A DNA stretch of 64,000 nt from a virus (IMGVR_UViG_3300004151_000006:126001-190000); one strand, 5' to 3'; shown: positions 8,461-63,041, counted from the first letter of the stretch. Notes: generated from the sequence alone by a model not told the origin. Numbers and translations are program-made.

Positions 8461-8496
8461 ATACAGTGGGTGTGGCCGATGCCACACCCACTGTAT
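8461..8496. terminator. Hairpin after gene 7910
   Basis: ATACAGTGGGTGTGGC pairs with GCCACACCCACTGTAT around CGAT. Confidence 0.75.
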
Positions 8497-8549
8497 GGTA
8501 TTTATTTAAAGCTTTTTAAGAATACTAGATATGCAGATCATTTCATTAC

Positions 8550-8563
8550 AAATATATATCATA
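8550..8563 (+). promoter_or_regulatory. Early-type promoter motif before gene 8620
   Basis: AAATATATATCATA at 56 bases before the start. Upstream sequence 8526-8549 is nearly identical to that before the motif at 41422. Confidence 0.65.
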
Positions 8564-8619
8564 AAAATGTATTTAGGAAACTAATCCCAATTAAACCATA
8601 TAGGTCCAAGGAGGACACC

Positions 8620-12526: not shown

Positions 12527-12578
12527 GTATCCTAGTGACCTAAGGGAGTGCTGAGGTCAGAGACTGTTGGTGTCGCGA

Positions 12579-14885: not shown

Positions 14886-14924
14886 GGACGTGGCACTCCC
14901 ATTAGGTGTGGTAGTAGGTGTCAA

Positions 14925-21003: not shown

Positions 21004-21076
21004 TTTATTGATGTCTGGAGTAAAAGTTACTTTAGACCATGTCATCCACTTCAACTTAAGTAAGGAGCTTTCTCAC

Positions 21077-44010: not shown

Positions 44011-44331
44011 ATGGTAGTAGATCTGCAAGAAGAAGTGATCATGGATAGTATCATCAATGATGCTAAAACCATTTCTAATGAAACAATGAATTTGGTAAAT
44101 AACACTAAACTTCTCATGGATCAAGTGGTGAGTTTGCGTGAACTTATCTTTATGTATTTTGAAGCTAAAGATTGGTATGATCAGGTACTTGGTGGTTTAG
44201 AACATTATCATTTGGATACTCAGGATACACGTGATAGTTTTGATTTGATCTTTGAAAATGCCACTCAAGAATATTACAGTGCTTGTACTCTTCTTCGTAG
44301 ACTTGGTGTCATCACCCAGGAGGATATGTAA
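44011..44331 (+). CDS. Hypothetical helical protein, 106 residues
   Basis: AGGAGGA precedes ATG 44011, and a weaker promoter-like motif lies at 43946-43956. The protein is helical throughout, acidic at the start (VVDLQEEVIMDSIINDA), and ends LLRRLGVITQEDM. No family is recognised. Its stop is 2 bases before the start of the P-loop gene at 44333, and that gene's AGGAGG site lies within its last codons, so the two are translated together. Confidence 0.68.
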   Translation: MVVDLQEEVIMDSIINDAKTISNETMNLVNNTKLLMDQVVSLRELIFMYFEAKDWYDQVLGGLEHYHLDTQDTRDSFDLIFENATQEYYSACTLLRRLGVITQEDM

Positions 44332-44332
44332 T

Positions 44333-44737
44333 ATGTTGGAATTGGTGTTGATCCGTGGTCTTCCTGGGAGTGGGAAGACCACTATGGCTAAGGAACAGTT
44401 CCCTGATCACATTCATTGTGAAGCTGATCAATATTTTACAGATGAACATGGTAATTTTAATTTTGATCCTAAGTTTATTGAAGTGGCACATGAAGCATGT
44501 TTCAATAAAGCAAATGATGCATTGGGTATTGGAAAAAGTGTGGTGGTATCAAATCAATTTCGTCTGTTAAAGGAGATGAAATCTTACGTAACTTTGGCAG
44601 ATTGTTATGGTGCAGAACTCAAAGTGTATGAATGTACTGGTTTTTATGGAAGTAAAGCTACTGATCCTGATTATTTGCAATTTGCTAAGTCTACCTGGGA
44701 ACCCCTCATATCGGAATCTAAAGAAGGAGTGAATTAA
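44333..44737 (+). CDS. P-loop kinase-like protein (AAA_33 / polynucleotide kinase type)
   Basis: ATG 44333 lies behind AGGAGG, and the frame is open to 44252 without a site. The 134-residue product begins MLELVLIRGLPGSGKTTMAK with Walker A GLPGSGKT (residues 9-16), then HCEADQYFTDEHG, a short-chain-kinase-type motif in which the Asp-x-Tyr/Phe follows a strand, and VVVSNQFRLLKEMKSY with a conserved N. This is the layout of small AAA_33 kinases such as the kinase domain of T4 Pnk, but it lacks a phosphatase domain. Substrate could be a nucleic-acid 5' end or a small molecule. Confidence 0.82.
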   Translation: MLELVLIRGLPGSGKTTMAKEQFPDHIHCEADQYFTDEHGNFNFDPKFIEVAHEACFNKANDALGIGKSVVVSNQFRLLKEMKSYVTLADCYGAELKVYECTGFYGSKATDPDYLQFAKSTWEPLISESKEGVN

Positions 44738-46155: not shown

Positions 46156-47316
46156 TTACCCGTTATATATTTTTTCATGTAAAGATAAGATACGTATCTC
46201 GATATAATCTCTGAGTTCATGGTGTTTACAGTTTGTCCAGGGTCTATTGTTTTTAAGCCTATTGATGATACGTTTGTATTCCACTAAGATAGTTTTAAAT
46301 AAAGTATTTTTAGGATTTAGTTTTAAAATATTAAAAATGAGTTCAAAGATATCAATCTCTTTTAAGATAGTGAGAAACATATATGGTCGTTTATGATCAG
46401 TATACCAACGTGTTTGACTGGATATCAAGAGATCTCTCAATGATCCGGAAAATAATAGATCCGTATTGAGAAGATTAATAGCTCTTGTATTATTGTGTTT
46501 AATGAGATCGAATTCTTTAAATAAAGATAGCATTCCATCGGTGTAAGTAGTAGTTATCTTACCATATTGATTTTCTACTTCTATTTCATCATAAGTCCTA
46601 GTAGATACAGTATCTAATGTATCAATATTGATCAACCATCGTAATTGTTTCATGAGCCAAATATTGGTGAGATCTGATTGAAAAGTATTATAAATGAAAT
46701 TCTTATAAAAGAATAAATTAGCTGAAGTGATATCTGGATATTGCATTATACCTTCTTTCTTAAATTTATACCATTTAAATATTAATGCTATTGGATCAAT
46801 CAAAAATATACATTGACTGGGTAATTGGTCATAAAAACGTATCCTACTTCCATTGAGATTAAGACTGAATTCATCACTATCATGCCACCAGACTTTCATG
46901 ACAGATATGTCTTTCCAAATATCCCATCCACTATTAAATGGTAAATATTGTAACGTATCAAGATCTTCATTCGATATGACAAATTCTTTTGTATAGCTCC
47001 CAGAGATATAATAGCGTCTAAAGATACTGCCTGTGTGGGTAGTGTCATATTTACTTATAAGTTCATTTCTTAAATCTGATATATAAAACATATATCGATC
47101 TACATCATTGGAGAATTTATTCATGTATTTCAAATCTACCATATGACAAAGAATATCGAGTAATCGCATACCATGTGGATAACTATTACTGTTACCATTT
47201 AAGTATTGATTGGTTTTATTGTTAGTATAGATTCTCATTCGTTCAAGGTAGTATTTATATTTAGGTATGGACCTTGGTGCACCTGGAGGAATATGATCTA
47301 AGAGATAATTCAGCAC
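46156..47316 (-). CDS. Hypothetical protein, 386 residues
   Basis: The start is GTG 47316, preceded on the minus strand by AAGGAG about 8 bases away; an out-of-frame ATG overlaps it. The product is rich in Ile, Tyr, Asn, Arg and Trp with helix after residue 15 (LLDILCHMVDLKYMNKFSND) and an acidic centre. No membrane segment, motif or repeat is recognisable. Codons are AT-rich. It is the only minus-strand gene between 35.3 and 64 kb and is divergent from the highly expressed gene at 47537. Its hairpin (46125-46149) is shared with 45248. Confidence 0.7.
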   Translation of the reverse strand: MLNYLLDHIPPGAPRSIPKYKYYLERMRIYTNNKTNQYLNGNSNSYPHGMRLLDILCHMVDLKYMNKFSNDVDRYMFYISDLRNELISKYDTTHTGSIFRRYYISGSYTKEFVISNEDLDTLQYLPFNSGWDIWKDISVMKVWWHDSDEFSLNLNGSRIRFYDQLPSQCIFLIDPIALIFKWYKFKKEGIMQYPDITSANLFFYKNFIYNTFQSDLTNIWLMKQLRWLINIDTLDTVSTRTYDEIEVENQYGKITTTYTDGMLSLFKEFDLIKHNNTRAINLLNTDLLFSGSLRDLLISSQTRWYTDHKRPYMFLTILKEIDIFELIFNILKLNPKNTLFKTILVEYKRIINRLKNNRPWTNCKHHELRDYIEIRILSLHEKIYNG

Positions 47317-47395: not shown

Positions 47396-47409
47396 GAGAT
47401 ATATATTAT
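47396..47409 (+). promoter_or_regulatory. Early-type promoter motif before gene 47537
   Basis: GAGATATATATTAT at 127 bases before the start of the highly expressed 583-residue gene. Confidence 0.6.
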
Positions 47410-47536
47410 CATAGTGGTGATACAATATAAAGATAGATTTTGGCACGACGGTGACCATCATAGTCTGTCCGAACATAGCGTATCACTACGCGTCTGGACG
47501 CATCATTCACCCTTACCTCCATGGAGGAGAACATTC

Positions 47537-49288
47537 ATGGCTCTTACCACTTCGACGACTGGTTCGACTGCTCCCAATGCTCAACCGCAGGGTGCACCCA
47601 CCATGCAGCCCACTGCATCAGCTGCTACCGCTACTGCAGTGTCACCTGATCCGACCATGATCACCACCCCCATCAATACCACTACGGCTCCTCGTCCGGA
47701 AGAGGGTGCTATTCCCAATAAGAAAGATCGCGGCAATATCCGTGACTTGCTCCATAAAGCCCCTATCCCGATGGCCATGAGTGAAGGTGCTACCAAGTAC
47801 ATTGAAGGTCTTAAGAAGTACTACGCTGAACATCAAAATATCGAATACCGAAATATCCGTGTCAATGCTCTGGCCCAGTTGCCCGGCGTCTTCATGGTTG
47901 AATACAATGATCGTGTGGCTCCTCTGATCATGCATGAGATGGTCGGCAGCATGATTGCAGACAACTCTCCTGACACCGTCGTCATGCGTCAGGCTGCCCA
48001 GGTCTATGCCCAGTACGTTCGGGGAAACATCGAAGCTCGGTTTACGCTGCTGCCGGCTGTGGTAATTCATCCTTCGGATTACCACAAGGTCGAGATCATG
48101 GGCAGCATCTTGTCCAACACCCTGTCCAATATCTCCGGACAGGAGTCTATCAATTCAGCAGTTCTCAAAAATGAACCGTTGATCATCTCGATCAACCAGT
48201 CGGAAGTCATGCCGTTCATTGATCGGCTGTCTCCGCATGGCATCCCTGGTCGGCACGACATCGGCTTCAAGCTGAGCCTGGCTCCCCAGAACATGAACTA
48301 CCAGTCCCGCAACGAGATGTTCGGCAACTGGAAAAATGAGATCGAGGATATCGCCGCTGTCACGGCATATACCGAGATTATCACTGGTCCGATTGATCCC
48401 ATGACTGGTATCCCCAAGTTCGTCCCGGTGGTTCATATCACCGACGTTCTGTCGCGTATCCAGGATATCAGGATGTACGTTATCCTGGTTTCCCTGGCTG
48501 CCGAGATCTTCATTCGTCAGGGCCTCTGGGAACACCAGTTCGCCCGTTTTAACAAGGATGAGCCCAACCTTGGATATCTGGTCAATGACCCCAATACCAA
48601 GGACCTCATGTTCATCGATAGTGCTCCGGCACTCAAGAGCTTCATCTATACCTACATGACTCCTCCGGTCCTGGTCGTCGACACCCTGGACGGACGGTCA
48701 CGTATCCCGGATACCGAGTTGACGGTCCTCTCGGCATCTGCGGATCTCAATGCCTACAAGCGGCAGGTCCTGACTAACTGCTTCAAAGAGCTCTGCACCA
48801 CGTTGAGCCTTGATCAGGCCAATGCTCTGGTGCCATTCCAGCCGTATTCTTACGAGAATACCGGATTGGCTTCCATCGGCGGCAGTCTCACGGACACTCG
48901 CGAGATCGACTACCTGCGTCTGGCTACCAACTGGAAGTCTGAAGTCGGCACCGCAGCCCTGCTCATGCAGCGTGCAGCTGGTGCCAAGCCGTCAGATCGT
49001 TTCGATCTGCAGAAGCGCTTCTACAGCGATGCTGTGGCGCTTTACAACAACAACATCATCCGTGTCGATCTGTCTTCCATCGCTGCCATCCAGTCCGAGA
49101 TCAGCCGTAACATCACGTTGGATCGTACGTCCTGGTCTCCCAGCATGGCCAACATCGACCTCACCGGCGCCATCGACGATACCCGCAAGTTCCTCAGTGG
49201 AGCTGGCAGTCTGGGTGTCAATGGCGGAGCCTTCGTCAATATGTCGACCATGTCCATCTATGGTGGGCCTGGTTACTACGGTCGTTAG
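47537..49288 (+). CDS. Very highly expressed early protein, 583 residues; candidate nuclear-shell or major structural protein
   Basis: GGAGGAGA precedes ATG 47537; the frame is open to 47414 without a site. Codons are strongly GC-biased, like those of the capsid gene, and a promoter motif lies at 47396-47409. Residues 1-70 are low-complexity (Thr, Ala, Pro), like a flexible arm; the rest is a folded alpha/beta protein (GVFMVEYNDRVAPLIMHEM; HITDVLSRIQDIRMYVILVSL) that ends in a Gly/Ser-rich tail (GGPGYYGR). Directly downstream is the RNA polymerase half-subunit gene. In phiKZ the shell protein gene (gp54) lies directly upstream of an RNA polymerase subunit gene (gp55), and the shell protein is an abundant early protein of about 600 residues. 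This makes a shell-type role attractive but unproven. Confidence 0.86.
   Translation: MALTTSTTGSTAPNAQPQGAPTMQPTASAATATAVSPDPTMITTPINTTTAPRPEEGAIPNKKDRGNIRDLLHKAPIPMAMSEGATKYIEGLKKYYAEHQNIEYRNIRVNALAQLPGVFMVEYNDRVAPLIMHEMVGSMIADNSPDTVVMRQAAQVYAQYVRGNIEARFTLLPAVVIHPSDYHKVEIMGSILSNTLSNISGQESINSAVLKNEPLIISINQSEVMPFIDRLSPHGIPGRHDIGFKLSLAPQNMNYQSRNEMFGNWKNEIEDIAAVTAYTEIITGPIDPMTGIPKFVPVVHITDVLSRIQDIRMYVILVSLAAEIFIRQGLWEHQFARFNKDEPNLGYLVNDPNTKDLMFIDSAPALKSFIYTYMTPPVLVVDTLDGRSRIPDTELTVLSASADLNAYKRQVLTNCFKELCTTLSLDQANALVPFQPYSYENTGLASIGGSLTDTREIDYLRLATNWKSEVGTAALLMQRAAGAKPSDRFDLQKRFYSDAVALYNNNIIRVDLSSIAAIQSEISRNITLDRTSWSPSMANIDLTGAIDDTRKFLSGAGSLGVNGGAFVNMSTMSIYGGPGYYGR
49253..49267 (+). repeat. 15-base direct repeat TCCATCTATGGTGGG, copies at 49253 and 49293
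   Basis: The first copy lies in the last codons of gene 47537 and the second (49293-49307) just after its stop, before the terminator. Confidence 0.7.
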
Positions 49289-49306
49289 ACCATCCATCTA
49301 TGGTGG

Positions 49307-49332
49307 GATGCCCCTGCACATGCAGGGGCATC
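49307..49332 (+). terminator. Hairpin after gene 47537
   Basis: GATGCCCCTGCAC-type palindrome; the arms pair perfectly. A 15-base direct repeat lies just before it. Confidence 0.72.
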
Positions 49333-49395
49333 TCCCATATATAAATATGCTCTATAAATTTTTATGAATTTATACCCATACTAATCATGTTGTAG

Positions 49396-49410
49396 GAAAA
49401 TATATATCAT
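49396..49410 (+). promoter_or_regulatory. Early-type promoter motif before the RNA polymerase gene
   Basis: GAAAATATATATCAT, 54 bases before TTG 49465, giving the polymerase subunit its own promoter after the hairpin 49307-49332. Confidence 0.62.
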
Positions 49411-49464
49411 AATGTTGAAGACACAGATAGTCTTTTATATAAATAAAAAGACAGGAGGTCTGAT

Positions 49465-51057
49465 TTGACAGTACCACATTATGCAGATATAAGCAAGGTA
49501 CCTAGTATTTATCATCATCTTAATCTTACTGAATTTGATCTAGATCCTCATGATGGTATCATGGATCGGATTCTTGATCTTGCACGTATTCTCACTCCTA
49601 TTGATTTTGAAAAACTATTTCAACAATCGCATAATGCGGGGATTATCAATCAGGGTCATCTGGTGGTAAAAAAGTTATCTGATGAATTCACTCGTGGTAT
49701 CTTTGCTGAATCAGATCAAGATGTACCATATCAACCACACTGTGAATGTAAAAAATTAAAAGGTCAGATGCACATAAATATGGTATGCCCCATTTGTAAT
49801 ACTAAAGTTTCCAATGAGTTTGTAGATCATTTATCACATGTAGCATGGTTGGGTATCCCCGATGGGCTTCCAAAAATGTTACATCCCGTTTGGTATCTAG
49901 TACTTAGAGATTGGCTTGGTGGTAAGAAAGGTGAATCATCTATCATTGATGCTATCTTAAATCCAGAATTGGAACTACCTAAAGATCTTAAAGCTATCAT
50001 CCCTGAACAAAGTTATATGTATTTTTATAATCATGCTGATGAAATTATGCAGGTATTGATGAATTTATATGAACCAACTAAACGAAAGAAATATACACCA
50101 TGGATTAAACGAATGTATCATGAATTTAAAGATATCATGTTTACCTCTAAGTTTCCAATTTTACACAATAGTTTACATCCATTTATGTCTGGTAGTTCCA
50201 CATTAAAATATGTAGATAAACCTTGTAAAGAGATCCTCAATGCTATCTTTGATCTTTCTGCTATTACATTTAGTTATCATACTCAATGGAAAGATAGATT
50301 GCTTACTGAAAAGAGAAAGAAAGAAATCAATAAAACACTTTATGATATTTACCGTAATGTTGTTGCATATTACATTGTGTTGATCAATGAGAAAGTTGGT
50401 AAGAAATCAGCTATCATGCGTAAACATAATTTTGGTACTCGAATGCATTTCACTATCAGATCAGTCGTAGTACCAATTACGGGTGCACATGATCCAGATG
50501 AAATTTATTTACCTTGGAAGTGTATAGTCAATGCCTATAAGTTGGAAATAATCGGAAGATTGGTAGATGATTATGGAATAGAAGCACCAAAAGCATATGT
50601 AAAACATCTTAATGCACTAGTGCATTATGATCCAATGATCCATGATATCATGCTCAAATTGATGAAGGAATGTCCATTTAAAGGTCTTCCTTTTCTCATA
50701 GGTAGAAATCCCACATTACGTTTATTTTCTATCATGCAATTGTTTTGTACTAAAATCAAAACAGATCTTCATGATCAGACTATTTCAATTTCTCCTCTGA
50801 TCCTTAAAGGAAGTAATACTGATTTTGATGGTGATGAATTAAATGGTGTCAATATCAAAGAAATGGCAGGTGTAATAGATATGGATACTATGCATCCAAG
50901 AGAAGCAGTACTGGATACGAATTCACCAAATGTATCCACATTGGTCATGCCATCAAATCAAGCATTACAAAATGCACACAGATTTGTACATCAAAATCCA
51001 GATATTGGTTATATCATTATGGGTGGTGGAAATACAGTCGGAGGTATGGCAGCATGA
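49465..51057 (+). CDS. RNA polymerase beta-prime-like subunit, N-terminal half with catalytic loop
   Basis: TTG 49465 follows AGGAGGT at 49453-49459. Residues 93-111 are the zinc site of multisubunit beta-prime (C93-x-C95 ... C108-P-I-C111). Residues ~315-335 have KSAIMRKHNFGTRMHFTIRS, the family's RxNxxGxRxxxSxRSV segment. Residues ~420-460 give RNPTLRLFSIMQ, then SNTDFDGDELNG, the metal-binding N(A/T)DFDGD loop with D453, D455 and D457. The protein ends about 75 residues later, so the trigger-loop half is missing, as in the split non-virion or virion polymerases of phiKZ-group phages. It would transcribe phage genes once joined by beta-type and second beta-prime parts. Its own promoter motif is at 49396-49410. 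Confidence 0.95.
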   Translation: MTVPHYADISKVPSIYHHLNLTEFDLDPHDGIMDRILDLARILTPIDFEKLFQQSHNAGIINQGHLVVKKLSDEFTRGIFAESDQDVPYQPHCECKKLKGQMHINMVCPICNTKVSNEFVDHLSHVAWLGIPDGLPKMLHPVWYLVLRDWLGGKKGESSIIDAILNPELELPKDLKAIIPEQSYMYFYNHADEIMQVLMNLYEPTKRKKYTPWIKRMYHEFKDIMFTSKFPILHNSLHPFMSGSSTLKYVDKPCKEILNAIFDLSAITFSYHTQWKDRLLTEKRKKEINKTLYDIYRNVVAYYIVLINEKVGKKSAIMRKHNFGTRMHFTIRSVVVPITGAHDPDEIYLPWKCIVNAYKLEIIGRLVDDYGIEAPKAYVKHLNALVHYDPMIHDIMLKLMKECPFKGLPFLIGRNPTLRLFSIMQLFCTKIKTDLHDQTISISPLILKGSNTDFDGDELNGVNIKEMAGVIDMDTMHPREAVLDTNSPNVSTLVMPSNQALQNAHRFVHQNPDIGYIIMGGGNTVGGMAA

Positions 51058-51707
51058 GTTATAGTTATACTCGCATTGAGCTTCCCAATAATGCTGCTAC
51101 CATTGGTCAACTCTTTGGAAATGTCTCTACATCAGATTGTTTGAAACAGATAGCTCAGAATTTTGGATATAATACTTCTTATTTTGGTAGTGATGCAGAT
51201 CCAACAAGAAATATGTATGCATATTTTCGTGAAGTCACATATGCACCATATCTTCAGACTGCTGAATGTTTTAAACAAGCAAATGCAATCATAGATAGAC
51301 AAGATGTATTTACACCAATCACTACAATAGAACAATTAAAAGAGGGTCCTCCCCCATGTATGTGGGTACCTATCTTGATGTATCCCCCAATGATGGAACT
51401 CCTTAAAGATGAAAAGATCTGTGGATATGGATATGATCCTAATAGTTTTCCTGAAGTAGATCCTGATCCTTATGGTAGATTGATCAACAATGGTACTATT
51501 CAATTGATCAATGATAATACAGTGTTTAATGATAAAAATGATCCCAATGCATTTTATGTTGAAGAAGTGTATACTACATACGATCCTAAAGTGACTGAGG
51601 ATGAACTCAATGCATTAGAGAAAACTAGGAAGTTTTTGGATATGTTCATGACTGCTGAAGATACCATGTATTTGGATCCAACGAATCCATTTGAGTTAAG
51701 GGGCTAA
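51054..51707 (+). CDS. Hypothetical protein coupled to the RNA polymerase subunit, 217 residues
   Basis: The ATG at 51054 overlaps the stop of the beta-prime half by 4 bases (ATGA), so both are made together. The product is acidic with Pro-rich turns (EGPPPCMWVPILMYPPMMELL), then a long helix with DELNALEKTRKFLDMFMT near the end. I do not recognise a family. Tight coupling suggests a partner of the polymerase or a small subunit, but this is inference. The hairpin at 51712-51737 follows. Confidence 0.75.
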   Translation: MSYSYTRIELPNNAATIGQLFGNVSTSDCLKQIAQNFGYNTSYFGSDADPTRNMYAYFREVTYAPYLQTAECFKQANAIIDRQDVFTPITTIEQLKEGPPPCMWVPILMYPPMMELLKDEKICGYGYDPNSFPEVDPDPYGRLINNGTIQLINDNTVFNDKNDPNAFYVEEVYTTYDPKVTEDELNALEKTRKFLDMFMTAEDTMYLDPTNPFELRG

Positions 51708-51773: not shown

Positions 51774-53276
51774 ATGGATATCAAGCCTATAGACAATTCC
51801 ATCTCTAAAACACTTGATGCTTGTAGTGAAGAAGAATTGTCACATATGTCATCAAATTATCCTTTTATCATTAAAGCTGGTAAAATTCCAGACTGCTGTC
51901 TGAATTATAATAATTTACTTCCTATTTGGCTTTATCATTGTGGTACTGCACCCCTTGGCTATGTGACTGCACAAGAGATGATCTTTCAATGTAAATCTTG
52001 TGGAAGACATATTTTGGCTAAAATATTCTTTGCAGTCAATGGTACGTGTTATGTGACTCAAGAAAATTCACGTGAAGTATTGTTTAGAAATGATGCATTG
52101 AAAGATACTCTTAATCGTATGTGGTATATCTTTAAGATTCCGAATAGTCTTAATCAAAGTGAATTAATTCAGTATCATCAACTTGCTGAAAATAATAGAT
52201 TTGCTTTCAATCTCGGTAATGGTAAATTGATGACATATCTTGAAGATATATCTGCTTGTGATTCCAATATGAATACTATTTCTACTACTGAGACACTTCA
52301 GATCATTGAAGGATCCATTCCTCCAGTAGAACTCAAAGGTAATGAACCAGATATGTTGACTATAGATGAATTGCCCCCTATTTTGACACCAGAAGAATTA
52401 GTTGAACAGGGAAAAGAAGTGTTACCTAAATTGAAATGTGATGCTAATCTTTTAGATACGGATTCAATAATGAAATATGATACTGTTATTTTGACTACTG
52501 AAAATGGTGTAAAATGTATCGATTATCCGATTTCTGAAGAAACTATAAAAAATATGAAAGATATTCCAATGATCAATAAGTATCTTCAGAAGCTTAAGAC
52601 TGGTGAATCACTCACTGAAGAAGATTTGGTAGCTAAGAAAATACACGATCTTATTATTGAAGGTGGACCAGTAGCTAAGGCTAATTTTGATATCAAGGGA
52701 AAAGAGAAAACTCTATTGAAAGATACCTTCTGTTTTAGAATAGGTGGTGATGTTACTAAAAATGATAATTCTAATGTTGGTTACAAGAATAAAATAGAAT
52801 TTTATAATGTGTATTGTAAATCACTTTCTTTATTGCCAAATCGTGATGAGATACTTGATCAGGGTACTATACGATTAAAACATATGTATCTTCAAGATGT
52901 TGCAATAAATCAATCTAATACGAGTGAAACACCTAAACAAAAGATCAATTTGATACTTAGAAATGTAGTATATGAAAAGATTGATATCACATCTAAACAA
53001 ACTTATTATGAATATGTGGATAAACTTATTGTTGAACTTGATAGTGAAAAATCAAATGATCAAGTATGTATTAATATTCTTCTTAATATTGAAGCTGGAG
53101 AATGGACAATCAATTATATCAATATGGGTGAAACTGTAGTTGATGAAGATTTTAAATTTGATGAAGTGGTGGAAGATACTGATGGTGTCCATACCGAACT
53201 CTCATGTGGTAAAGAAGGATATAATGATTTGGATGGTGAGTGTGCTAGATGTAGAAATAGAGAATGTGATAGTTAA
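51774..53276 (+). CDS. Hypothetical zinc-site protein near the RNA polymerase gene, 500 residues
   Basis: GGAGGA precedes ATG 51774. Residues ~40-80 contain C-C-L-N-Y and a C-K-S-C-G pair (zinc-ribbon-like), residues ~95-125 carry helices, the middle is acidic (EELVEQGKEVLPKLKCDANL), and the last 20 residues hold four cysteines (CGKEGYNDLDGECARCRNREC) that could bind a second zinc. No full-length family is recognised. Its size and position next to the polymerase half-subunit resemble the fifth subunit of the phiKZ non-virion polymerase (gp68, about 520 residues), but I see no sequence evidence for that. The hairpin 53286-53317 ends the unit. Confidence 0.78.
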   Translation: MDIKPIDNSISKTLDACSEEELSHMSSNYPFIIKAGKIPDCCLNYNNLLPIWLYHCGTAPLGYVTAQEMIFQCKSCGRHILAKIFFAVNGTCYVTQENSREVLFRNDALKDTLNRMWYIFKIPNSLNQSELIQYHQLAENNRFAFNLGNGKLMTYLEDISACDSNMNTISTTETLQIIEGSIPPVELKGNEPDMLTIDELPPILTPEELVEQGKEVLPKLKCDANLLDTDSIMKYDTVILTTENGVKCIDYPISEETIKNMKDIPMINKYLQKLKTGESLTEEDLVAKKIHDLIIEGGPVAKANFDIKGKEKTLLKDTFCFRIGGDVTKNDNSNVGYKNKIEFYNVYCKSLSLLPNRDEILDQGTIRLKHMYLQDVAINQSNTSETPKQKINLILRNVVYEKIDITSKQTYYEYVDKLIVELDSEKSNDQVCINILLNIEAGEWTINYINMGETVVDEDFKFDEVVEDTDGVHTELSCGKEGYNDLDGECARCRNRECDS

Positions 53277-53386: not shown

Positions 53387-53830
53387 ATGTCTACTACACC
53401 AATTCGGATGTTGCCAGTACTTAGTAGTGTGACAGGTATTCTTACTGATATACATGAAATCACAGCTAGTATTATTAGATTTGTCATGTGCACACCTGGG
53501 ACCACATCTAGTTACGTAGAAGAAGAATTGGTTTCTTTTAGATATTTAGCTGGTAAAGTGGGATATGATAAAGATCAAATGTGTAAGATGTTAGAAGTTG
53601 GACTTACTGGTATTTTTCAAAGATATTTTCCAGACCACACACCAATTGTAGCAGTGACAAATGCACCATATGAAGGAAATGAATTGGAGTTTAGATATAC
53701 CATTACCATTGACGTCACTTATCGTACAAGTGATGGGGATATCATTTCTGGTATTGAAGCTGGTACTTTCTTAGTAGATTCAGATAACAGGATTACTCTT
53801 AAATTCAACAATAGTAGCACTACCATTTAA
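53387..53830 (+). CDS. Hypothetical protein, 147 residues
   Basis: AAGGAGAT precedes ATG 53387. The product has a helical N-terminal half (GILTDIHEITASIIRFVM; AGKVGYDKDQMCKMLEVGLTG) and a beta C-terminal half (LEFRYTITIDVTYR), and resembles small alpha/beta phage structural or adaptor proteins, but no family can be named. It is the first gene of the run 53387-57256 that contains the SbcD-like and SSB-like genes, so a role in DNA processing is as likely as a structural one. Confidence 0.7.
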   Translation: MSTTPIRMLPVLSSVTGILTDIHEITASIIRFVMCTPGTTSSYVEEELVSFRYLAGKVGYDKDQMCKMLEVGLTGIFQRYFPDHTPIVAVTNAPYEGNELEFRYTITIDVTYRTSDGDIISGIEAGTFLVDSDNRITLKFNNSSTTI

Positions 53831-53841
53831 GGAGAAACCAT

Positions 53842-54600
53842 ATGACAAAACCAGACTTTGGTGATCTTAGAGCACCACGTGGTAGAGAACGTGATTTGGA
53901 AAATATGGTAACACATTTCAGAAAATTACAAAATTCATTAATCATATTTACTGAATCTGAATTTAGTAAATACACACCAATTTATATGGCTGAATATAGA
54001 AAGGAAGTATCTGAATATACACCAAGTGAATTGGAATTTATTGCAAACTTATCTAAAGAGTTTCATTCTAGAATTGATCTTTATAAACCAACATATGTTG
54101 TGAGTGATCAATTAACACCTATCCAAAAAGAACTTCAACTCAGTAGAACAAACCATGAACAAATATTCACTGCTGGGGAAAAATTATATATCTATTTTGG
54201 AAATAACATACTTAGAGAAGTACTCTTTATTCTTCCAGAAATACAACAACCTTTTAGTTCACTTAAAACCACTGAAGCTAAAGAAGCTGTTGACATTTGT
54301 CAAAATATTACAGCTAATGCACATGATCAGCCATGGAAAGTCTCTGAAGCAGTGAATAATTTAGCGCACCATATGTTTGCTTCTCAAGATATGGATCAGA
54401 CCGTAATTAATGGTAAGAATTTTATGCAACATGTGATCAAGCTTCATAACTCAAAATATTTCAATACTAAGATCACTGCATCTGGAAAATTAGAATATAA
54501 ACAAGATAACTCTGTTATACCAACAATAAATCCTACAACTACTCCAATAGATAAAGTTGATAAAAAAGGAGATGTGTCATTAGACGATCTTTTTGATTAA
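53842..54600 (+). CDS. Hypothetical protein with acidic DDLFD tail, 252 residues
   Basis: AAGGAG precedes ATG 53842. Residues 1-175 are helical with a basic start (FGDLRAPRGRERDLENM), residues ~185-225 are a mixed region and the last 25 residues form a flexible linker (NPTTTPIDKVDKKGD) ending VSLDDLFD. The SSB-like protein encoded 2 kb downstream ends in the same DDLFD. Such acidic-hydrophobic tips are protein-docking peptides in SSB proteins. No enzyme motif is present. Its stop abuts the ribosome site of the SbcD-like gene, which suggests joint work in end processing or replication. Confidence 0.75.
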   Translation: MTKPDFGDLRAPRGRERDLENMVTHFRKLQNSLIIFTESEFSKYTPIYMAEYRKEVSEYTPSELEFIANLSKEFHSRIDLYKPTYVVSDQLTPIQKELQLSRTNHEQIFTAGEKLYIYFGNNILREVLFILPEIQQPFSSLKTTEAKEAVDICQNITANAHDQPWKVSEAVNNLAHHMFASQDMDQTVINGKNFMQHVIKLHNSKYFNTKITASGKLEYKQDNSVIPTINPTTTPIDKVDKKGDVSLDDLFD

Positions 54601-54616
54601 GGAGGGTCAATATCTT

Positions 54617-55759
54617 GTGATTAAACAACTTTATATATCTGATCTTCATTTTGGAAAATCTAGGATAGATCCAATACGATTAAGAGAGACTTTATTAGAA
54701 GAAATAGCTAAAGAGATAGAGGATGTTCAAATCATATTTTTTTGTGGTGATATGTTTAATCAGATGTTATTTTTAGATCATCCTGCAGCATATCAAGCTA
54801 TATTGTTTATTACTGGAGTATTGCATTTAGCTAAACAACACAATGTGATAGTGAGATTTTTGCGTGGTACATATACCCATGACAGGGAACAACAGAGAAT
54901 TATTGATGGTCTCGGTATCCAGGGTGTAAACTATCGAGTCATCAATGAAATTTATGTGGAAACTATTAGTGATTGGAATAATAATGATACTGGTAAATTG
55001 AAAATACTCTATTTACCAGATTCATTACCATACAGAAACATTATTCAGATCTATAATAAAATTAAAGAGCTTTATACTTTAGTTGGTTGGGATAAATGTG
55101 ATTTGATCATTGGACATGGGGCATTTAGTCATTGTTTTCCTGAACATATAAAACTTCCACCGTGTGTTTATACAGTGAATGACATAAATCAATTTGTTAG
55201 TGGGTATGTGGTCATGGGGCATATACATACTCCCAGTAAAAAAGAAAATGTCATATATGTGGGTAGTTTTGAACGTATGTCCCATGGTGAAGAAGAAAAG
55301 AAAGGATATTTGATTGGTTATAAAGATCAAGATCATTGGAAATTTAAATTCAAAGAAAACAAACAGGCCACACTCTTTATCACCATGTATCCGAAAGAAC
55401 ATACAAAAGAAAATCTCCTTAATGAGGTCTATCAATTTATTGAAAATAAGTTTCCTAATCAGACTGGATATCTTCGTATTATACACCATGATCCAGAATT
55501 TAAATCTATCATTTTAAACATCTGTTATCAAAAATATCCAAACATTAAGATTACCTTTAAAAATGATACTACACATAAATCTGAAATGGAATTAGATGAA
55601 TGTGATATTGATGCTACTTTAGAAGTAGATACTTTATCAATAGAAAATATAGCAGCACATATAACTGATGTATTGGCTAAAGATAGTATTTATGGAACAT
55701 ATCACTATGGATATGATGAAATACGAAATACATTAGAAATATTATCTTTGAAAAAATAG
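54617..55759 (+). CDS. SbcD/Mre11/gp47-like metallophosphoesterase nuclease
   Basis: AAGGAGGG at 54599-54606 precedes GTG 54617; a longer frame from ATG 54593 begins inside the previous gene before its ribosome site. The 380-residue product has the family motifs: D9-L-H11-F-G, G-D45-M-F-N, R-G-T-Y-T-H88-D89 in place of GNHD, G-H167-G-A-F and G-H202-I-H204-T-P. Asn of GNHD is replaced, which may change metal binding or activity. The C-terminal part (residues ~210-380) is a DNA-binding/capping region. It should form the nuclease half of a complex with the SbcC-like protein at 3744-6305, about 48 kb away. Confidence 0.88.
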   Translation: MIKQLYISDLHFGKSRIDPIRLRETLLEEIAKEIEDVQIIFFCGDMFNQMLFLDHPAAYQAILFITGVLHLAKQHNVIVRFLRGTYTHDREQQRIIDGLGIQGVNYRVINEIYVETISDWNNNDTGKLKILYLPDSLPYRNIIQIYNKIKELYTLVGWDKCDLIIGHGAFSHCFPEHIKLPPCVYTVNDINQFVSGYVVMGHIHTPSKKENVIYVGSFERMSHGEEEKKGYLIGYKDQDHWKFKFKENKQATLFITMYPKEHTKENLLNEVYQFIENKFPNQTGYLRIIHHDPEFKSIILNICYQKYPNIKITFKNDTTHKSEMELDECDIDATLEVDTLSIENIAAHITDVLAKDSIYGTYHYGYDEIRNTLEILSLKK

Positions 55760-55769
55760 GAGATAGATT

Positions 55770-56615
55770 ATGGATTTAGAAAATATTAACAATGTTGCTG
55801 GGGATGGGAGCTTTGGATTAGCTCCCATCCTCAATATGTTTTCCACACATGCCAATAATAAAAATAGGCCAAAATGGGATCTTTATGTAGTCAACATGCT
55901 TACACTTATTAGAAATAATCAACAAAAAGGAAAACAACTATCGGTACTTATTAATAATACTATTAGAGATGCAGAGTTACTTATTACACATATTGAAAAT
56001 TATGTGGAGTTGGATAAATTAAGTCTTAGTCAACCGACACTTATTATTTATATACCTTTTTATCAAATACCACAATTATATGTGAAAAAGATTTCACCAT
56101 CTTTAGTTGAACAACAATTGGCTTGTGATAAAATACGGAATCAATTGAAACCAAGAGTCTATACTCAAGGTAGCCTTACCATCCATGTGGTGTATGTTGG
56201 TAGTAATAGATCTACTCCAAAATGTGAATTAATCAATTATATCAATGCACAGATATCCAATAGTTATAAGTTTAAACGCACTGCTATCATTTCACATATT
56301 GCTATGGATCTACATCTTTTTCAAGATATAGTTGAGATTATATTGATTGAATGCTTTACAGGTAAACTTAAAAAGAGTAATGTGTTTAATGAAAAAGTCT
56401 TTAATACAAAAGAACTTCCATTTCATCCTTACATACATTTACTATTGGGTGACAATACTTTTATTAAACGAACACTTAAGAAAAAACAATATGATGAATT
56501 ATTGGCTTTTGCAAAATCACATTCTTGGAAGTATCGACCTACCGTCCTCATAGAGAAGGATCTTCTCTCCATGAAGTTAGTGGAAGATAAGCACTTCTTT
56601 GAATATAAACTTTAA
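55770..56615 (+). CDS. Hypothetical protein, 281 residues, in the recombination operon
   Basis: GGAG precedes ATG 55770, 10 bases after the SbcD-like gene ends. The product has a central alpha/beta core (SQPTLIIYIPFYQIPQLYV; GSLTIHVVYVGSN) and basic C-terminal helices (LGDNTFIKRTLKKKQYDEL). No ATPase or nuclease motif is seen. Its position between the SbcD-like and SSB-like genes suggests a replication or recombination accessory. No family is recognised. Confidence 0.75.
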   Translation: MDLENINNVAGDGSFGLAPILNMFSTHANNKNRPKWDLYVVNMLTLIRNNQQKGKQLSVLINNTIRDAELLITHIENYVELDKLSLSQPTLIIYIPFYQIPQLYVKKISPSLVEQQLACDKIRNQLKPRVYTQGSLTIHVVYVGSNRSTPKCELINYINAQISNSYKFKRTAIISHIAMDLHLFQDIVEIILIECFTGKLKKSNVFNEKVFNTKELPFHPYIHLLLGDNTFIKRTLKKKQYDELLAFAKSHSWKYRPTVLIEKDLLSMKLVEDKHFFEYKL

Positions 56616-56647
56616 CACCCATACCGTGGGGAAGGAGCATGATCTTT

Positions 56648-57256
56648 ATGTCTGATGCACCCAATTATAATAATTTGTGGTCTACCACTTCACGTGAAAA
56701 GGATCAAAAGAATTCTAATCAGTTGTCATTTGGTGTATTTAATCGTATTGCTGGTTTTTCTGTCTTTATGGGTGATAGTCCTGGACGTCCGAAATTTAAA
56801 CACTCTCTCAATAATGAAAGTATTGTACTTCTGGAAGAATACATTGATACTTTGCTTAATGCTAAAGGTGAACATAAAGAATATTTGATTTCTACCAAAT
56901 ACAACATGGAAACTAAACAATCAGAAAAGATCTCTCAGATCACATTTATTCGTGATGAAAAAGGTATCTTTCATATCGAATGCTACAATAAAGAATTAGG
57001 TAGTCCGGTGATGTTCACTCTTCGATCTACGACTACATACACTACTGGTGGAGATGGTATCTCTGTTGCTAAAAAATCTGAACTTGCTATGAAGAGTCTT
57101 AAGAAAACCTTGCAGGATATCAATTTAGCTAAGTGGAATTCTCCTGCTATGGCACCCAATCGTAATGGTGGTGGTAAGTTTGGTGGAAACAATGGTAGTA
57201 ATAGTTCTGGTAGTGGTGGTAGTAAACCCAGTGGTGGTGATGATCTGTTCGATTGA
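56648..57256 (+). CDS. Single-stranded DNA-binding-like protein, 202 residues
   Basis: ATG 56648 is chosen because AAGGAG at 56632-56637 lies 10 bases before it; the ATG at 56639 is too close. Residues ~25-135 are a beta-rich core (FGVFNRIAGFSVFMG; EYLISTKYNMETKQSEKIS; QITFIRDEKGIFHIE). Residues ~160-195 form a Gly/Ser/Asn linker (NGGGKFGGNNGSNSSGSGGS) and the protein ends GGDDLFD, the acidic tip seen in SSB proteins that recruits partners. This is a typical SSB layout although the OB core is not confirmed. It closes the operon with the SbcD-like gene. Confidence 0.72.
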   Translation: MSDAPNYNNLWSTTSREKDQKNSNQLSFGVFNRIAGFSVFMGDSPGRPKFKHSLNNESIVLLEEYIDTLLNAKGEHKEYLISTKYNMETKQSEKISQITFIRDEKGIFHIECYNKELGSPVMFTLRSTTTYTTGGDGISVAKKSELAMKSLKKTLQDINLAKWNSPAMAPNRNGGGKFGGNNGSNSSGSGGSKPSGGDDLFD

Positions 57257-57352: not shown

Positions 57353-57387
57353 ATAAATGTCTATTTTAAACAGGAGGATGATGTGTG

Positions 57388-58410
57388 ATGTCCGTCCCAC
57401 AAAGGAAATTGGGACAATTGCAGGATGAACCCCAATTTGAGAATTGTTTTGTTGAACACTTTTATACGAGTCAAAACATAGTACCATTGGGGTATGTCGT
57501 ACTGCGGTTGTTTGATGAAATGACCACATTAGCTAGTCTTTATCCACAGATACCTAAAATTATACGTAATGGTACAAATGCAAAATATCAAGAAGATTTT
57601 CTCTATCTTTGTGGAAAACGATCACGGAATGTGTTGGGTATTCAAAGTAAAATTTGTATAGTAGTTGCACCCTATGAAACAACATTACATGATGTACAGT
57701 GTGATTATTTACTGATCATTGGTGGAAAAAAGGTACATATTAAAAATAGTAATATTAATAGTTTATTCATTTATGGTACTGAACAGGTGATTGTAGAAAA
57801 TGTGACTATCATTGATACATTTATTGATATTTCAAATACTTTAGAGATGCGTGGAGATTATTTTCATTGTGATCTTAATTATATTACTGTAAAAAATCTC
57901 ATTACTAACAATATTGACATTGTTAAAGATGCATTTTATTTATTGGGGCTTACCAATGTGAACTTAAATAAAACAAGTCCAAAGATGTTAGAACAATTTC
58001 CAAATATGTATTTGTGTTCGATGGAATACTCAAATAAAATTGTAGTGTTTAAGTTATCACCCACTATGATACATCTTAGATTCATGTGGCTTATATGGGC
58101 AATGTGGAATGTAGATCATTTTGATATTGATATTACACAAAGCCATTTGACACTGTTGGAAAGTAAATCTATTAATAATAGTCCAAATTATCTTCGTATG
58201 TCCAGATATCTTCATGAACGTAATCCTTATTATCAATATTTTTATAACAAAATGGTTAGTATCAATATGCATCTTTCTGATAGTGAAATTAATATATTTG
58301 AAGAAAGTACTAATAGATGTAATACTACTTCATTTGATTTGGTACCCCAGATATTCACATCACGTGTAGATTCTAGTATTAAATCAAAGTATTTAATAAA
58401 ATCCGTATAA
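57388..58410 (+). CDS. Hypothetical early protein with beta-helix-like part, 340 residues
   Basis: AGGAGG at 57373-57378 precedes ATG 57388, and the promoter motif TAAATATATATTAC at 57321-57334 is about 55 bases upstream. Residues ~85-180 show short repeating strands (QCDYLLIIGGKKVHIKN, NINSLFIYGTEQVIVEN, ITVKNLITNNIDIV), which look like a beta-helix. Residues ~215-240 (LRFMWLIWAMWNVDHFDI) resemble the part that follows the beta strands in the protein at 8620. No domain is recognised. The palindrome 58415-58452 ends the unit. Confidence 0.76.
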   Translation: MSVPQRKLGQLQDEPQFENCFVEHFYTSQNIVPLGYVVLRLFDEMTTLASLYPQIPKIIRNGTNAKYQEDFLYLCGKRSRNVLGIQSKICIVVAPYETTLHDVQCDYLLIIGGKKVHIKNSNINSLFIYGTEQVIVENVTIIDTFIDISNTLEMRGDYFHCDLNYITVKNLITNNIDIVKDAFYLLGLTNVNLNKTSPKMLEQFPNMYLCSMEYSNKIVVFKLSPTMIHLRFMWLIWAMWNVDHFDIDITQSHLTLLESKSINNSPNYLRMSRYLHERNPYYQYFYNKMVSINMHLSDSEINIFEESTNRCNTTSFDLVPQIFTSRVDSSIKSKYLIKSV

Positions 58411-58556: not shown

Positions 58557-60230
58557 ATGCAATTCGTTCGTCGCGACAACGAATTTGGTTTATCTTGCAT
58601 TTATTTGGATATGGAAGGTATTGAGCTTGGTATTCGAGATGTATATAAACCAGGATTTCATTCACTCACTGAAGATGAGTTTTTAAAATTGGCAGAGACT
58701 AGTGAACCATTTAAGATGTTTCGGGTAGATACTTATAATGTACTCAAACCCACCAATAGTTCATTTAATTGGGATTGTGTTTTTGGACCTGTTAATCATT
58801 TTCTTAAATCTATGACCAATGATGAATGTCGTACAATTGCAGAGACACTTATCTCTGTCCATCATGATATTGTTTCTGAGATGCAATATGGTGCTAGCTT
58901 ATCAAGTAATTTAATTGAGATCACTAAGAGTTTAGCTAATCAGTTGGATTGTATGGAACGTGAACTTAATCTTTGTGAAAGATTGGAAGTTTATGTAAAC
59001 AATCCACTCAATATGGATATTCCATTATTTGAAAATGCAGGTAAACGTGCTCAAGATAAAGCAGATATGACTTTTCATAGACCTGAAGTAGTATTACTCA
59101 CTGCTATCACAGTTCTTAATAAATTATTATCTCCCGTACTTGGTGTGTTTATTGAACATTGTAAAAAACAGTTAGACAATAGTTTAAAAGAACTCCATTG
59201 TGTAAATATGATTATGCCCATTTTGTATAGAAAATATCCAGACTTAGTACCAAAACTTAAATGGTATATCAGAAATATTATTAAACCAAATGTGAAGAAT
59301 ACTGTAGAATATGTGGCAAATGGATTTACGTTAGAATTAGAATCACAAAAGAGTTTTGCTAATATCTTAGTAAGAAAATTAGTCAGTGTCAATTTGTTTA
59401 AAGAAGGTGGAAATTTAATGACTTATATCACAGCATCTATTAAAGAGTCTACTCGTACACCTACATTTATGTCAGTTACAAGAAATGCAATCAAAGAAAT
59501 GGATAATCCTACTGAGAGTAGTAGTTCACCCTCTAGTGAAGAAGGTAATACTTCAGCGTTAGAATATGGATCTCGTTGTTCTGATCATACTGTGGATTTT
59601 CCAGTACTTACAAGTTTAGCTGCAAAATCACTTATTAAAAATATCATCAATGAAGAAGAAATTGATCCTGAACTTTTTGAAGAGTGTTTAGCATACTATC
59701 GAATAAATCTTATCACTATGACACCCATCAATTTATATTTGTTAGCTACGACATATGGATATAGCTTAGGTGGTGCTAAATCTATCTGGGCACTTAACAT
59801 GAAAGAGATAATTGAACTTGTCACAGTATTTCAATTCCAGTGTTTGAAACGTGGGTATCATGCTCTTATTCCAGCAGTATCTTTAGGTGAAGCTACCCAT
59901 TTGGGATTACCACCAATCAAATCTATTCAGACCCAATTTGATAGTCAACTAAAGACTGCATGGAATGCTTCATTCGAATATAAAAACTGTAAAGCAAGAT
60001 TTAATACAATAATCAGTACTTTAGAATGGGACACAGTAGTTAAAGAAATAGTAGAATTTCTTATTAATAATAATAAAGCTATTAATCTCCCATTTTATTT
60101 CTTAGAACAACTAAAGATTGATCATCTTAATCAAAAAGAATATCAGTATCCTGAAATTATTATCAAAACCATTTGTGGATATACATTGGATGTTACAACA
60201 GGCATCTATGAAGGAGCAATTGAAGCATGA
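58557..60230 (+). CDS. Hypothetical protein with early promoter, 557 residues
   Basis: GGGAGG at 58541-58546 precedes ATG 58557, and a promoter motif lies at 58462-58476. The product is mostly helical, with a Ser-rich acidic linker around residues 320-335 (TESSSSPSSEEGNTS) between two folded parts. It has no signal peptide and no ATPase, nuclease or membrane motif. Codons are AT-rich, so it is not one of the highly expressed early genes despite its promoter. The next gene overlaps its stop (ATGA). No family is recognised. Confidence 0.75.
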   Translation: MQFVRRDNEFGLSCIYLDMEGIELGIRDVYKPGFHSLTEDEFLKLAETSEPFKMFRVDTYNVLKPTNSSFNWDCVFGPVNHFLKSMTNDECRTIAETLISVHHDIVSEMQYGASLSSNLIEITKSLANQLDCMERELNLCERLEVYVNNPLNMDIPLFENAGKRAQDKADMTFHRPEVVLLTAITVLNKLLSPVLGVFIEHCKKQLDNSLKELHCVNMIMPILYRKYPDLVPKLKWYIRNIIKPNVKNTVEYVANGFTLELESQKSFANILVRKLVSVNLFKEGGNLMTYITASIKESTRTPTFMSVTRNAIKEMDNPTESSSSPSSEEGNTSALEYGSRCSDHTVDFPVLTSLAAKSLIKNIINEEEIDPELFEECLAYYRINLITMTPINLYLLATTYGYSLGGAKSIWALNMKEIIELVTVFQFQCLKRGYHALIPAVSLGEATHLGLPPIKSIQTQFDSQLKTAWNASFEYKNCKARFNTIISTLEWDTVVKEIVEFLINNNKAINLPFYFLEQLKIDHLNQKEYQYPEIIIKTICGYTLDVTTGIYEGAIEA

Positions 60231-61378
60231 TCATAGCCATTAAACCCAGTTCTTTTGAACCATGTATAAAATTTGTAGATAGTAGTACTACAAGAGTAAT
60301 TCGTGGTACCCATTGTGGTGAAAGTTATTATGGTATTGGTGGATATTTTCATGTCTCTGATAAAATCCAGAAATATAGAATCACTGAATATCATCAAGGT
60401 GTTTATATTGAAAGATATTTTGTTGGTCCTAAGGGATACTTATTTCATCCAAAATGGAGATCTGATAAATTGCTTTGTCAGATTATGATAAAGACCGTTG
60501 ATCCCAGAGTAAACATTTATCGGGGTGATATTACCCATGTACTCATTGATAGACGTGGTATTGAAAAGTGTTTAAAGCTTTATAATGATTTATCTGTCAA
60601 TACAAAGTTTCTCAGTAATATCTTTTATAAATGTGTAAAAGCTGAATGTGAAAATGATGCCTATTTAGGAGAAGCTTTTGATGATGCAGAATGTAGTATA
60701 GATCAATATCAACAACTTAGTTGGGTATTATCTAAACATTTAAATCATGGTAGAGAATTTATTCCACATTATCAACCTGAAGACATTATGAATATATTAC
60801 TTACAGATTTTCAAAGTATACAGCGTGGATATATACCTACAAGACAATTGTTATATTCAGTGGAAGATCTTTTTGTACCAGATGGGAGTCTTACATTTCC
60901 CAATAGATTCAGTGCACAAATACTCAAAAATCCAGGTACATCACAAGATGAAATCATGTCACATGTCGGTGGTGAAATAGGGAGAGATAGTGTATGTACA
61001 GATGATGTAGAATTTATGGATTTAGCAAAATATAGATATAAAATTAAACCAATCACCTATTATAATGAGGCTATCATGGATCTAATTGATGTGTGTAGTA
61101 CTATGGTCTATAGTGATCTTTATTTCGAATATATATCATTAAAATGTGGTAATATAAAATCTACTGTAAGATATGCTGGTGTAATATTAGATTCAGTTTA
61201 TTCAAATGATATATTGAGAAATATAGCTACCATTATCATAGATGATCTCATGCCTACCATTGGTGAGTTTAAGTTTTATAAAACATATGATCAAGAGATC
61301 TATATTGAAGCTAACAATGAACTTATTGTAATAGACATGGTTTTAGGTAATATTATTTCTTTAGCACTACATAGGTAA
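60227..61378 (+). CDS. Hypothetical protein, 383 residues
   Basis: The ATG at 60227 overlaps the upstream stop by 4 bases, so translation is coupled to the 557-residue gene. The product is mixed alpha/beta with Cys and Tyr scattered through it (YGIGGYFHVSDKI, FVGPKGYLFHPKWRSDKL, LFVPDGSLTFPNRFS). No motif is recognised. A copy of the promoter motif lies inside the gene at 61127-61139, which could add transcription of the virion-type gene at 61434. Confidence 0.75.
   Translation: MIIAIKPSSFEPCIKFVDSSTTRVIRGTHCGESYYGIGGYFHVSDKIQKYRITEYHQGVYIERYFVGPKGYLFHPKWRSDKLLCQIMIKTVDPRVNIYRGDITHVLIDRRGIEKCLKLYNDLSVNTKFLSNIFYKCVKAECENDAYLGEAFDDAECSIDQYQQLSWVLSKHLNHGREFIPHYQPEDIMNILLTDFQSIQRGYIPTRQLLYSVEDLFVPDGSLTFPNRFSAQILKNPGTSQDEIMSHVGGEIGRDSVCTDDVEFMDLAKYRYKIKPITYYNEAIMDLIDVCSTMVYSDLYFEYISLKCGNIKSTVRYAGVILDSVYSNDILRNIATIIIDDLMPTIGEFKFYKTYDQEIYIEANNELIVIDMVLGNIISLALHR
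61127..61139 (+). promoter_or_regulatory. Promoter motif inside gene 60227
   Basis: GAATATATATCAT inside a coding region, about 295 bases before ATG 61434. It could be a chance match in AT-rich coding sequence. Confidence 0.3.
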
Positions 61379-61433
61379 TAACAAATTTATCTTTGTATCT
61401 AAATTGATCCGAAAAGAGGAGGGCTATACATAT

Positions 61434-63041
61434 ATGATCCCCATTCTGCCCAATCAAGCATTGCCAAATTATATCAATGATGCAAATATGTTCATGCAGG
61501 GTAGTGCATTTTCTTCAAGATGTGCTACCTTGTATTTATTTACTCCAAAACATCTGTCGGATCAATTCCGCAGACCTCATGTATACAAATTTGAACAGCC
61601 CTTTATTTGGAATATCCAAAACACTATTGAACATAATAAAGTATCACAGCGTAACATCAATATGTCTTCATTCATGGTGGGTAATGCTGAAGCTAATACT
61701 TCCGTTATGCCAAATATGCATGGTATCCCCATTCAAACTAATCCACTTCGTATAATGTGGACATTTGTACTCATTGTTGACAATGATAAAGATCCTTCTA
61801 TTGGTATGTATCTTAAAGTGAATCAGAGAGCCATTTATTCTGGATATTGTACAGATGAACCTGTTAGTGTTGGTCTTAATGGTATGAATCCTCAACCTAA
61901 TCCACAGTGTTTCTTTGTAGTGACACATCGTACTTCTACTAATGTTGGAAATGTAATTAGTCAAACTGGTACTGTGCCACAAATGCATGTATCATCCAAT
62001 GCAGATATTTTACCTGTAGATAATATCATCATGACTTCACCCACTCCTGAGATTTATGATATTACACCACGATCCATTAATAGAAATGTAGTGGATAATC
62101 CCAATAATGGAACAGTTGATGTGTTTGCTGGTAATCATAGTTTACTACAACGCAATGCGGCAAATCAAAACGGTAATCCTATTATTGATGCGGAGTTTTC
62201 TTCTCCTAAACACCATATGCACTGGGTAGTCAATAATCTTCAAAAAGCTATACTTGATGTACACCCACTGGTTGGTAATGAACAGGCTCTTCTCATGCAG
62301 GGTAGTGGTACATCTATGGCTGAAACTTCATTTGATAGTTATATGGATGCAGCTTCACCATCTAATTATAATGATCCTTTAAATAGTAATCATCCCATTG
62401 CATTTCCAGATATCTTGCGTAGGTATCCTGATCTTGATATTAAAGATTGTCGTGCACCATATGAAACACCTTGGTATACTGATACTGCTAATCAAGGTGA
62501 ATCTACTCCTAAGAATGTAGCACAAGCTGTACTCTCATATACTGTACCTTTCCTTCTCAATGAATTTCAGTTGTGTGATGTTTCATTTCGATATGCTAGT
62601 TATATGACAGATGGCATTTCTAATATCAAAGGTATGGATCAGCCCGATATGGTCACAAGTATCATCCCCATGGCAGATGAATTTAGATATCAAAAATATC
62701 GAATGTTCATTGAACGTATGAAGATCTTGGTATTTCCAATCTTAGAACAAATCGATGGTCCATTTGATCTCATGATGACATGTTCAGTCTCTGGACCCAG
62801 TATCATCAATTTACAATATAAAGATTATAATGCAAATAATAACTTTTCAGGTTTTTATGAAACCAATAATCTTTTTGGTGGTATTAATACACCTCTGGTT
62901 GGTACAAAACCTATCTTTGAAAATAATGTCAATGAATTGGCTAAACTCAAAGGTTGTATCCTGGAAGCTGCTATGCCCAATCAGCAGTTTTTCACAACAG
63001 ACAATTGGTCTCCAATGACCGATTGGACTAATCTCGAATAG
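61434..63041 (+). CDS. Virion structural protein candidate, 535 residues
   Basis: GAGGAGGG at 61416-61423 precedes ATG 61434; the frame is open to a TTG at 61404. The product is a soluble beta-rich protein rich in Asn, Pro and Met, with no enzyme motif (NPLRIMWTFVLIVDNDKDPS; HMHWVVNNLQKAILDVHPL; FQLCDVSFRYASYMTDGI), as is typical of phage head or tail structural proteins. No family is recognised. The next gene starts 15 bases after the stop. Confidence 0.7.
   Translation: MIPILPNQALPNYINDANMFMQGSAFSSRCATLYLFTPKHLSDQFRRPHVYKFEQPFIWNIQNTIEHNKVSQRNINMSSFMVGNAEANTSVMPNMHGIPIQTNPLRIMWTFVLIVDNDKDPSIGMYLKVNQRAIYSGYCTDEPVSVGLNGMNPQPNPQCFFVVTHRTSTNVGNVISQTGTVPQMHVSSNADILPVDNIIMTSPTPEIYDITPRSINRNVVDNPNNGTVDVFAGNHSLLQRNAANQNGNPIIDAEFSSPKHHMHWVVNNLQKAILDVHPLVGNEQALLMQGSGTSMAETSFDSYMDAASPSNYNDPLNSNHPIAFPDILRRYPDLDIKDCRAPYETPWYTDTANQGESTPKNVAQAVLSYTVPFLLNEFQLCDVSFRYASYMTDGISNIKGMDQPDMVTSIIPMADEFRYQKYRMFIERMKILVFPILEQIDGPFDLMMTCSVSGPSIINLQYKDYNANNNFSGFYETNNLFGGINTPLVGTKPIFENNVNELAKLKGCILEAAMPNQQFFTTDNWSPMTDWTNLE

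Follow-up and report, generated by a model that had tools for sequence, protein, structure and literature searches.

The closest described systems are the chimallins, of which 201phi2-1 gp105 and Goslar ChmA (PDB 7sqq-7sqv) are proteins of 631 residues for which four-fold tetramers and a square lattice have been described; the C-terminal domain of chimallin has an acetyltransferase-toxin-like fold (both PMC9365700). PhuN of PhiPA3 (gp053; PDB 8fne) is encoded directly upstream of the N-terminal beta-prime subunit (N-beta-prime) of the non-virion RNA polymerase. We examined 18 reference phages that carry chimallin. In 17 of them, N-beta-prime is closely preceded by a gene for a protein of 600-710 residues, which is annotated as a nuclear shell protein in many; a few phages carry one or two small genes between the two. 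The shell gene is usually preceded by a minus-strand gene of ~360 residues, and N-beta-prime is followed by a run of small genes, SbcD and genes resembling phiKZ gp66, gp67 and gp68. The most diverged known chimallin in our sample is TSMG0133 of Halocynthia phage JM-2012, a 590-residue protein whose gene is GC-rich relative to its own locus and also lies upstream of N-beta-prime, though a few genes further up. The AR9-like jumbo phages of Bacillus and Staphylococcus (AR9, BpSp and SA1) have a related N-beta-prime subunit, but carry an endolysin, amidase or beta-subunit gene in the shell-gene slot.

Here we describe a 64,000-nucleotide stretch of DNA (the window; bases 126001-190000 of the 286,688-bp IMG/VR virus record of an uncultured jumbo phage) in which this slot holds a gene for a 583-residue protein. 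We assign the protein to the chimallin family as a new and deeply diverged member, and consider it very probably the chimallin of this phage, the protein from which a nucleus-like shell is mainly built. A preliminary description of the locus, in which no diagnostic motif was noted, had suggested such a role on the strength of position, size and composition, and the suggestion is now supported by a profile-profile match, fold comparison, conserved gene order and a genome-wide scan.

The open reading frame and its flanks

The gene (47537-49288, plus strand) runs for 583 codons from an ATG at 47537, preceded by a GGAGG Shine-Dalgarno sequence, to a stop at 49288; the length agrees with the preliminary description. 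The protein divides into an N-terminal arm (residues ~1-78), a folded core (~80-533) and a flexible, Gly-rich tail (~535-583), with 27% Gly in residues 551-583. The gene had also been called codon-optimised, and its unusual composition is real: its GC content is 53.9% in a window of 36%, and its GC3 of 0.65 ranks fifth among the 219 genes of the whole record (34.9% GC). The same tendency is seen in all 18 reference phages, where the GC content of the shell gene exceeds that of the rest of the locus by 3 to 12 points, and in 10/10 members of the lineage described below, by 4 to 24 points. This composition fits a very abundant or highly expressed protein and carries no indication of timing.

A strong codon and GC bias is common to the major head protein gene (12579-14924, minus strand; phrog_3231, E 1.8e-15), which has the highest GC3 of the genome (0.768), and to a tail tube-like gene that ranks close behind the shell gene. 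The bias would suit a head or tail protein that happens to lie beside the polymerase gene, a reading that the preliminary description had kept open. Yet the 583-residue protein matches no head or tail family, its profile and predicted fold match chimallin only, and besides the major head gene the record has sheath- and tube-like genes of its own at 56.9-60.0 kb. Because the capsid and sheath genes lie elsewhere, we reject this reading, which we regard as very improbable. A 763-residue antisense frame without a family match overlies the major head gene (12567-14858, plus strand) and is probably a shadow frame caused by composition. Three plus-strand frames that resemble the major head gene in their high GC3 (0.55-0.77), at 21008-22249, 7910-8431 and 8470-10014, have no PHROG match of worth; they are likely to represent abundant proteins, with their strand uncertain, as the antisense frames are long too.

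The early promoter claimed for the gene found no support. The phiKZ-type early-promoter motif, which we take to be TATATTAC, is absent upstream of the shell gene and occurs eight times in the window against 6.6 expected, which is not above chance. The AT-rich stretch at 47399-47413 does not stand out as a repeated motif (five matches with up to two mismatches, 2.5 expected), and sigma-70-like sites are at chance level. The leader that precedes the gene (47414-47536) is long and somewhat structured (z -1.9), and its 3' end, CCTCCATGGAGG, could mask the Shine-Dalgarno sequence. Just 3' of the gene lies a strong RNA hairpin without a T-run, GATGCCCCTGC-ACAT-GCAGGGGCATC (49305-49334, plus strand), with a fold z-score of -4.95 and none of 200 shuffles equally stable; FBKp24, LucasX and Moabite have terminators annotated at this same place after the shell gene.

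Genome setting and gene order

Across the whole record, homologues were found for about 40 proteins of PhiPA3, among them the terminase (4e-127), family B polymerase, sheath, UvsX, DnaB, SbcC and head protease, as well as subunits of both the virion and the non-virion multisubunit RNA polymerases. A search of the phage genome for the PhuZ tubulin detected none; PhuZ is present in just 66% of chimallin-encoding phages (PMC10299810).

The position of the gene directly upstream of a beta-prime-like gene, noted in the preliminary description, holds. The downstream neighbour (49465-51057, plus strand) encodes the N-terminal beta-prime subunit of the non-virion RNA polymerase, the orthologue of phiKZ gp55 and PhiPA3 gp054; it matches phrog_2987 (E 2.3e-82), carries the motif NTDFDGDE and belongs to a family whose HMM finds PhiPA3 gp054 at 3e-93. 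Relatives of this subunit were found in 261 phage records.

For the surrounding genes, we built profiles from the window's own lineage, and these recovered the corresponding genes of the reference phages. On the minus strand upstream of the shell gene, a 386-residue gene (46156-47316) is orthologous to the minus-strand gene that precedes chimallin in the reference phages: its family HMM matches 11 reference ORFs (best 8e-12), and the best three of the 11 are the minus-strand gene adjoining the shell gene. Downstream, on the plus strand, follow a 217-residue gene (51054-51707), orthologous to the ~205-residue gene after N-beta-prime (family HMM best 4e-13), a 147-residue member of the conserved block (53387-53830; best 5e-12), an SbcD-like nuclease subunit (54593-55759; phrog_100 E 3e-24, reference SbcD 5e-73), a 281-residue gp66-like gene (55770-56615; best 5e-23) and a 205-residue gp67-like gene (56639-57256; family HMM 2e-7, phrog_3284 2e-7), both also block members and named after their phiKZ counterparts. 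The series ends with the orthologue of phiKZ gp68, the promoter-recognition subunit of the non-virion RNA polymerase (58557-60230, plus strand; gp68 HMM 4e-18, hhalign Prob 97, phrog_3209 9e-16). The reference order is thus kept from the minus-strand gene to gp68, the comparison covering this block rather than the full 72-gene core, with extra genes inserted, among them 51774-53276 and 57385-58410. The first of these insertions is a 500-residue gene without a convincing family match. Beyond gp68, the two genes in the slot of the PicA/Imp1 importer (phiKZ gp69), at 60227-61378 and 61404-63041, have no detectable homology to it. Further upstream, the frame at 44252-44737 encodes a P-loop protein (RGLPGSGKTT) that resembles a small nucleotide or polynucleotide kinase.

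Relatives in metagenomic jumbo phages

Scans of viral contigs with the 583-residue protein alone, or with a pair of sequences, returned only the same phage and one relative (L027). We scanned IMG/VR with N-beta-prime alignments to find relatives, and identified a homologue in the corresponding position at nine more loci (L022, L024, L025, L026, L027, L102, L103, L104 and L107), with 17-26% identity and blastp E-values of 1e-10 to 3e-29. In a tenth genome (L023) the slot beside the polymerase gene is empty of a homologue, which lies elsewhere in the 235,833-bp record, at 193589-195082, as an open frame of 534 residues that the family profile finds at E 8.6e-97; we refer to this relocated shell gene as L134. 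Three records that cluster with the AR9-like phages, two of them short fragments, gave no match to this profile.

We built a maximum-likelihood tree from N-beta-prime. All 19 reference phages in it and 11 chimallin-carrying phages from viral contigs form one group (support 100/100; branch length 0.83). The window's lineage falls outside this group, between it and the AR9-like group that lacks the shell; the outgroup sits on a long branch, the root and the placing of the outgroup are uncertain, and the lineage may be a clade or a grade. Nucleus-forming phages thus probably include a lineage outside those known so far.

Profile comparison with chimallins

Standard searches do not recognise the 583-residue protein: it matched no Pfam or PHROG family, phmmer against PDB sequences gave nothing of note, and tblastn against 50,697 phage genomes gave nothing. 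A profile search against chimallin families gave a clear result. When the protein and five relatives were compared by hhalign with 17 chimallins, the match reached Prob 98.65 and P 4.9e-16 over 447 columns, and stayed collinear between the N-terminal region and the final helix of the core. With all ten lineage sequences (the protein and the nine relatives that share its slot), it rose to Prob 99.0 and P 3.7e-18 over ~440 columns. The lineage profile was built without any reference chimallin, and the controls were flat, with a reversed alignment, 10 column shuffles and 10 gene families from elsewhere in these loci all at Prob <=0.4.

Searches in the other direction agree with this match. The profile of the protein and five relatives, run against 177,635 PDB sequences with E-values up to 10, had a single match, Goslar chimallin 7sqt (E 0.028), and the family HMM, run on the complete ORF set of the 17 reference loci, had three matches, all shell genes, the best at 1e-9. 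When the 96 ORFs of at least 300 residues in the genome were scanned singly, only the 583-residue protein stood out (P 7.5e-5, the next 0.025), and the scan, made in search of a clear chimallin elsewhere in the genome, yielded no better candidate. A chimallin-profile search of the phage's own genome found no match anywhere, because of divergence, and cannot show absence.

Identity between the protein and the chimallins is about 11-16%, and what conservation there is includes G-x-P-x-R-x-D-I (here HGIPGRHDI), a tryptophan at position 331 and G-x-x-x-D-x-R-x-x-D-Y-L (here GSLTDTREIDYL). JM-2012 TSMG0133 is still recognised by the chimallin HMM at 6.6e-15, whereas the 583-residue protein, as a single target, reaches only E 1e-4. 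Its hhalign comparison with the chimallin profile on its own is likewise modest (Prob 64-84), as might be expected if the resemblance to chimallin were spurious and produced by co-alignment of an unrelated alpha/beta protein with two domains. This we consider extremely improbable, given the strength of the family profile that contains no reference chimallin and the flat controls; moreover, eight of the nine other members match the chimallin profile when taken alone (P 1.2e-4 to 1.7e-9; L103 is weak, at P 0.027), as does the held-out relocated gene L134 (P 5.5e-8). On sequence grounds, homology of the 583-residue protein to chimallin appears close to certain, and we hold it more firmly than the role in a functioning shell, itself very probable.

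Predicted structure

An AlphaFold2 model was obtained from a 64-sequence alignment of the 10 lineage members and 54 viral-contig chimallins, with a mean pLDDT of 76.7 and a pTM of 0.77; a single-sequence AlphaFold model gave no usable fold (pLDDT 31). The core (~80-533) is mostly above pLDDT 70 and largely above 90. The arms proposed in the preliminary description are borne out by the model, in which pLDDT is below 50 over most of the stretch 1-57 and throughout 535-583, both predicted to be disordered, and low confidence extends to residue ~78.

In a Foldseek search of the PDB, nine chains matched at E<=0.001, all of them chimallin or PhuN (E 6e-17 to 7e-15), and the tenth match stood at 0.03. 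TM-scores against the chimallin chains are moderate, at 0.55-0.64 (0.59-0.64 when normalised by the target). The top structural match is PhiPA3 PhuN (E 6e-17), at 16% identity over the structural alignment; the window's phage lies outside PhiPA3's group in the N-beta-prime tree. At E<=0.001 the BFVD matches number 16, all proteins of 590-691 residues, and the named ones belong to jumbo phages or to an unclassified myovirus. AtaT and TacT, toxins of the GNAT type, are among the weak PDB matches (E about 0.5), which agrees with the acetyltransferase-toxin-like fold published for the C-terminal domain of chimallin (PMC9365700). As modelled, the 583-residue protein has the two-domain core fold of chimallin, and since the alignment contained chimallins, this fold match is a consistency check that is not independent of the homology.

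Discussion

The 583-residue protein shares with 201phi2-1 gp105 and Goslar ChmA a collinear profile match, the same predicted fold and a two-domain core with disordered arms at both the N- and the C-terminus, and with Goslar also the same gene neighbours. It is shorter than both, and its tail of ~50 residues is the putative counterpart of the known linking segments. This tail, the very high divergence from the solved chimallins (12-16% identity) and the lack of a detected PhuZ or PicA homologue would also suit a chimallin homologue whose shell role has been lost or changed, such as a scaffold that associates with DNA or membrane but forms no closed nucleus. However, the gene is kept in all 11 members of the lineage, even after its move in the L023 genome, and its linkage to the polymerase operon in 10; its composition is that of a highly expressed gene and its predicted core fold is complete. 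We consider a changed role improbable, if less so than the other alternatives, and favour the reading of the protein as the phage's shell-forming chimallin.

By analogy with solved chimallins, formation of the shell, its assembly and its protective effect might be envisaged as follows. The two-domain core would pack into four-fold tetramers, within which the N-terminal arm would dock onto a neighbouring subunit, while the flexible Gly-rich C-terminal tail would reach out to neighbouring tetramers. The tetramers could in this way form a thin, flexible sheet that closes around the replicating phage DNA and also encloses the phage's own non-virion RNA polymerase, which is encoded next door. Such a shell would keep host nucleases out.

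On balance, we lean towards a view in which the window's phage and its ten relatives branch, as one lineage or several, before all previously described nucleus-forming phages in our sample. The shell would then predate the Chimalliviridae as currently defined and extend beyond them, and its protein may differ here in arm architecture and in assembly. A chimallin lineage outside the known group provides a deep branch from which to ask how the phage nucleus originated, and which of the shell protein's parts are essential. The profile of the 583-residue protein and its nine relatives is a ready search tool that has already found the relocated shell gene of the eleventh genome. As standard libraries call the 583-residue protein unknown, nucleus-forming phages are probably under-counted in metagenomes.
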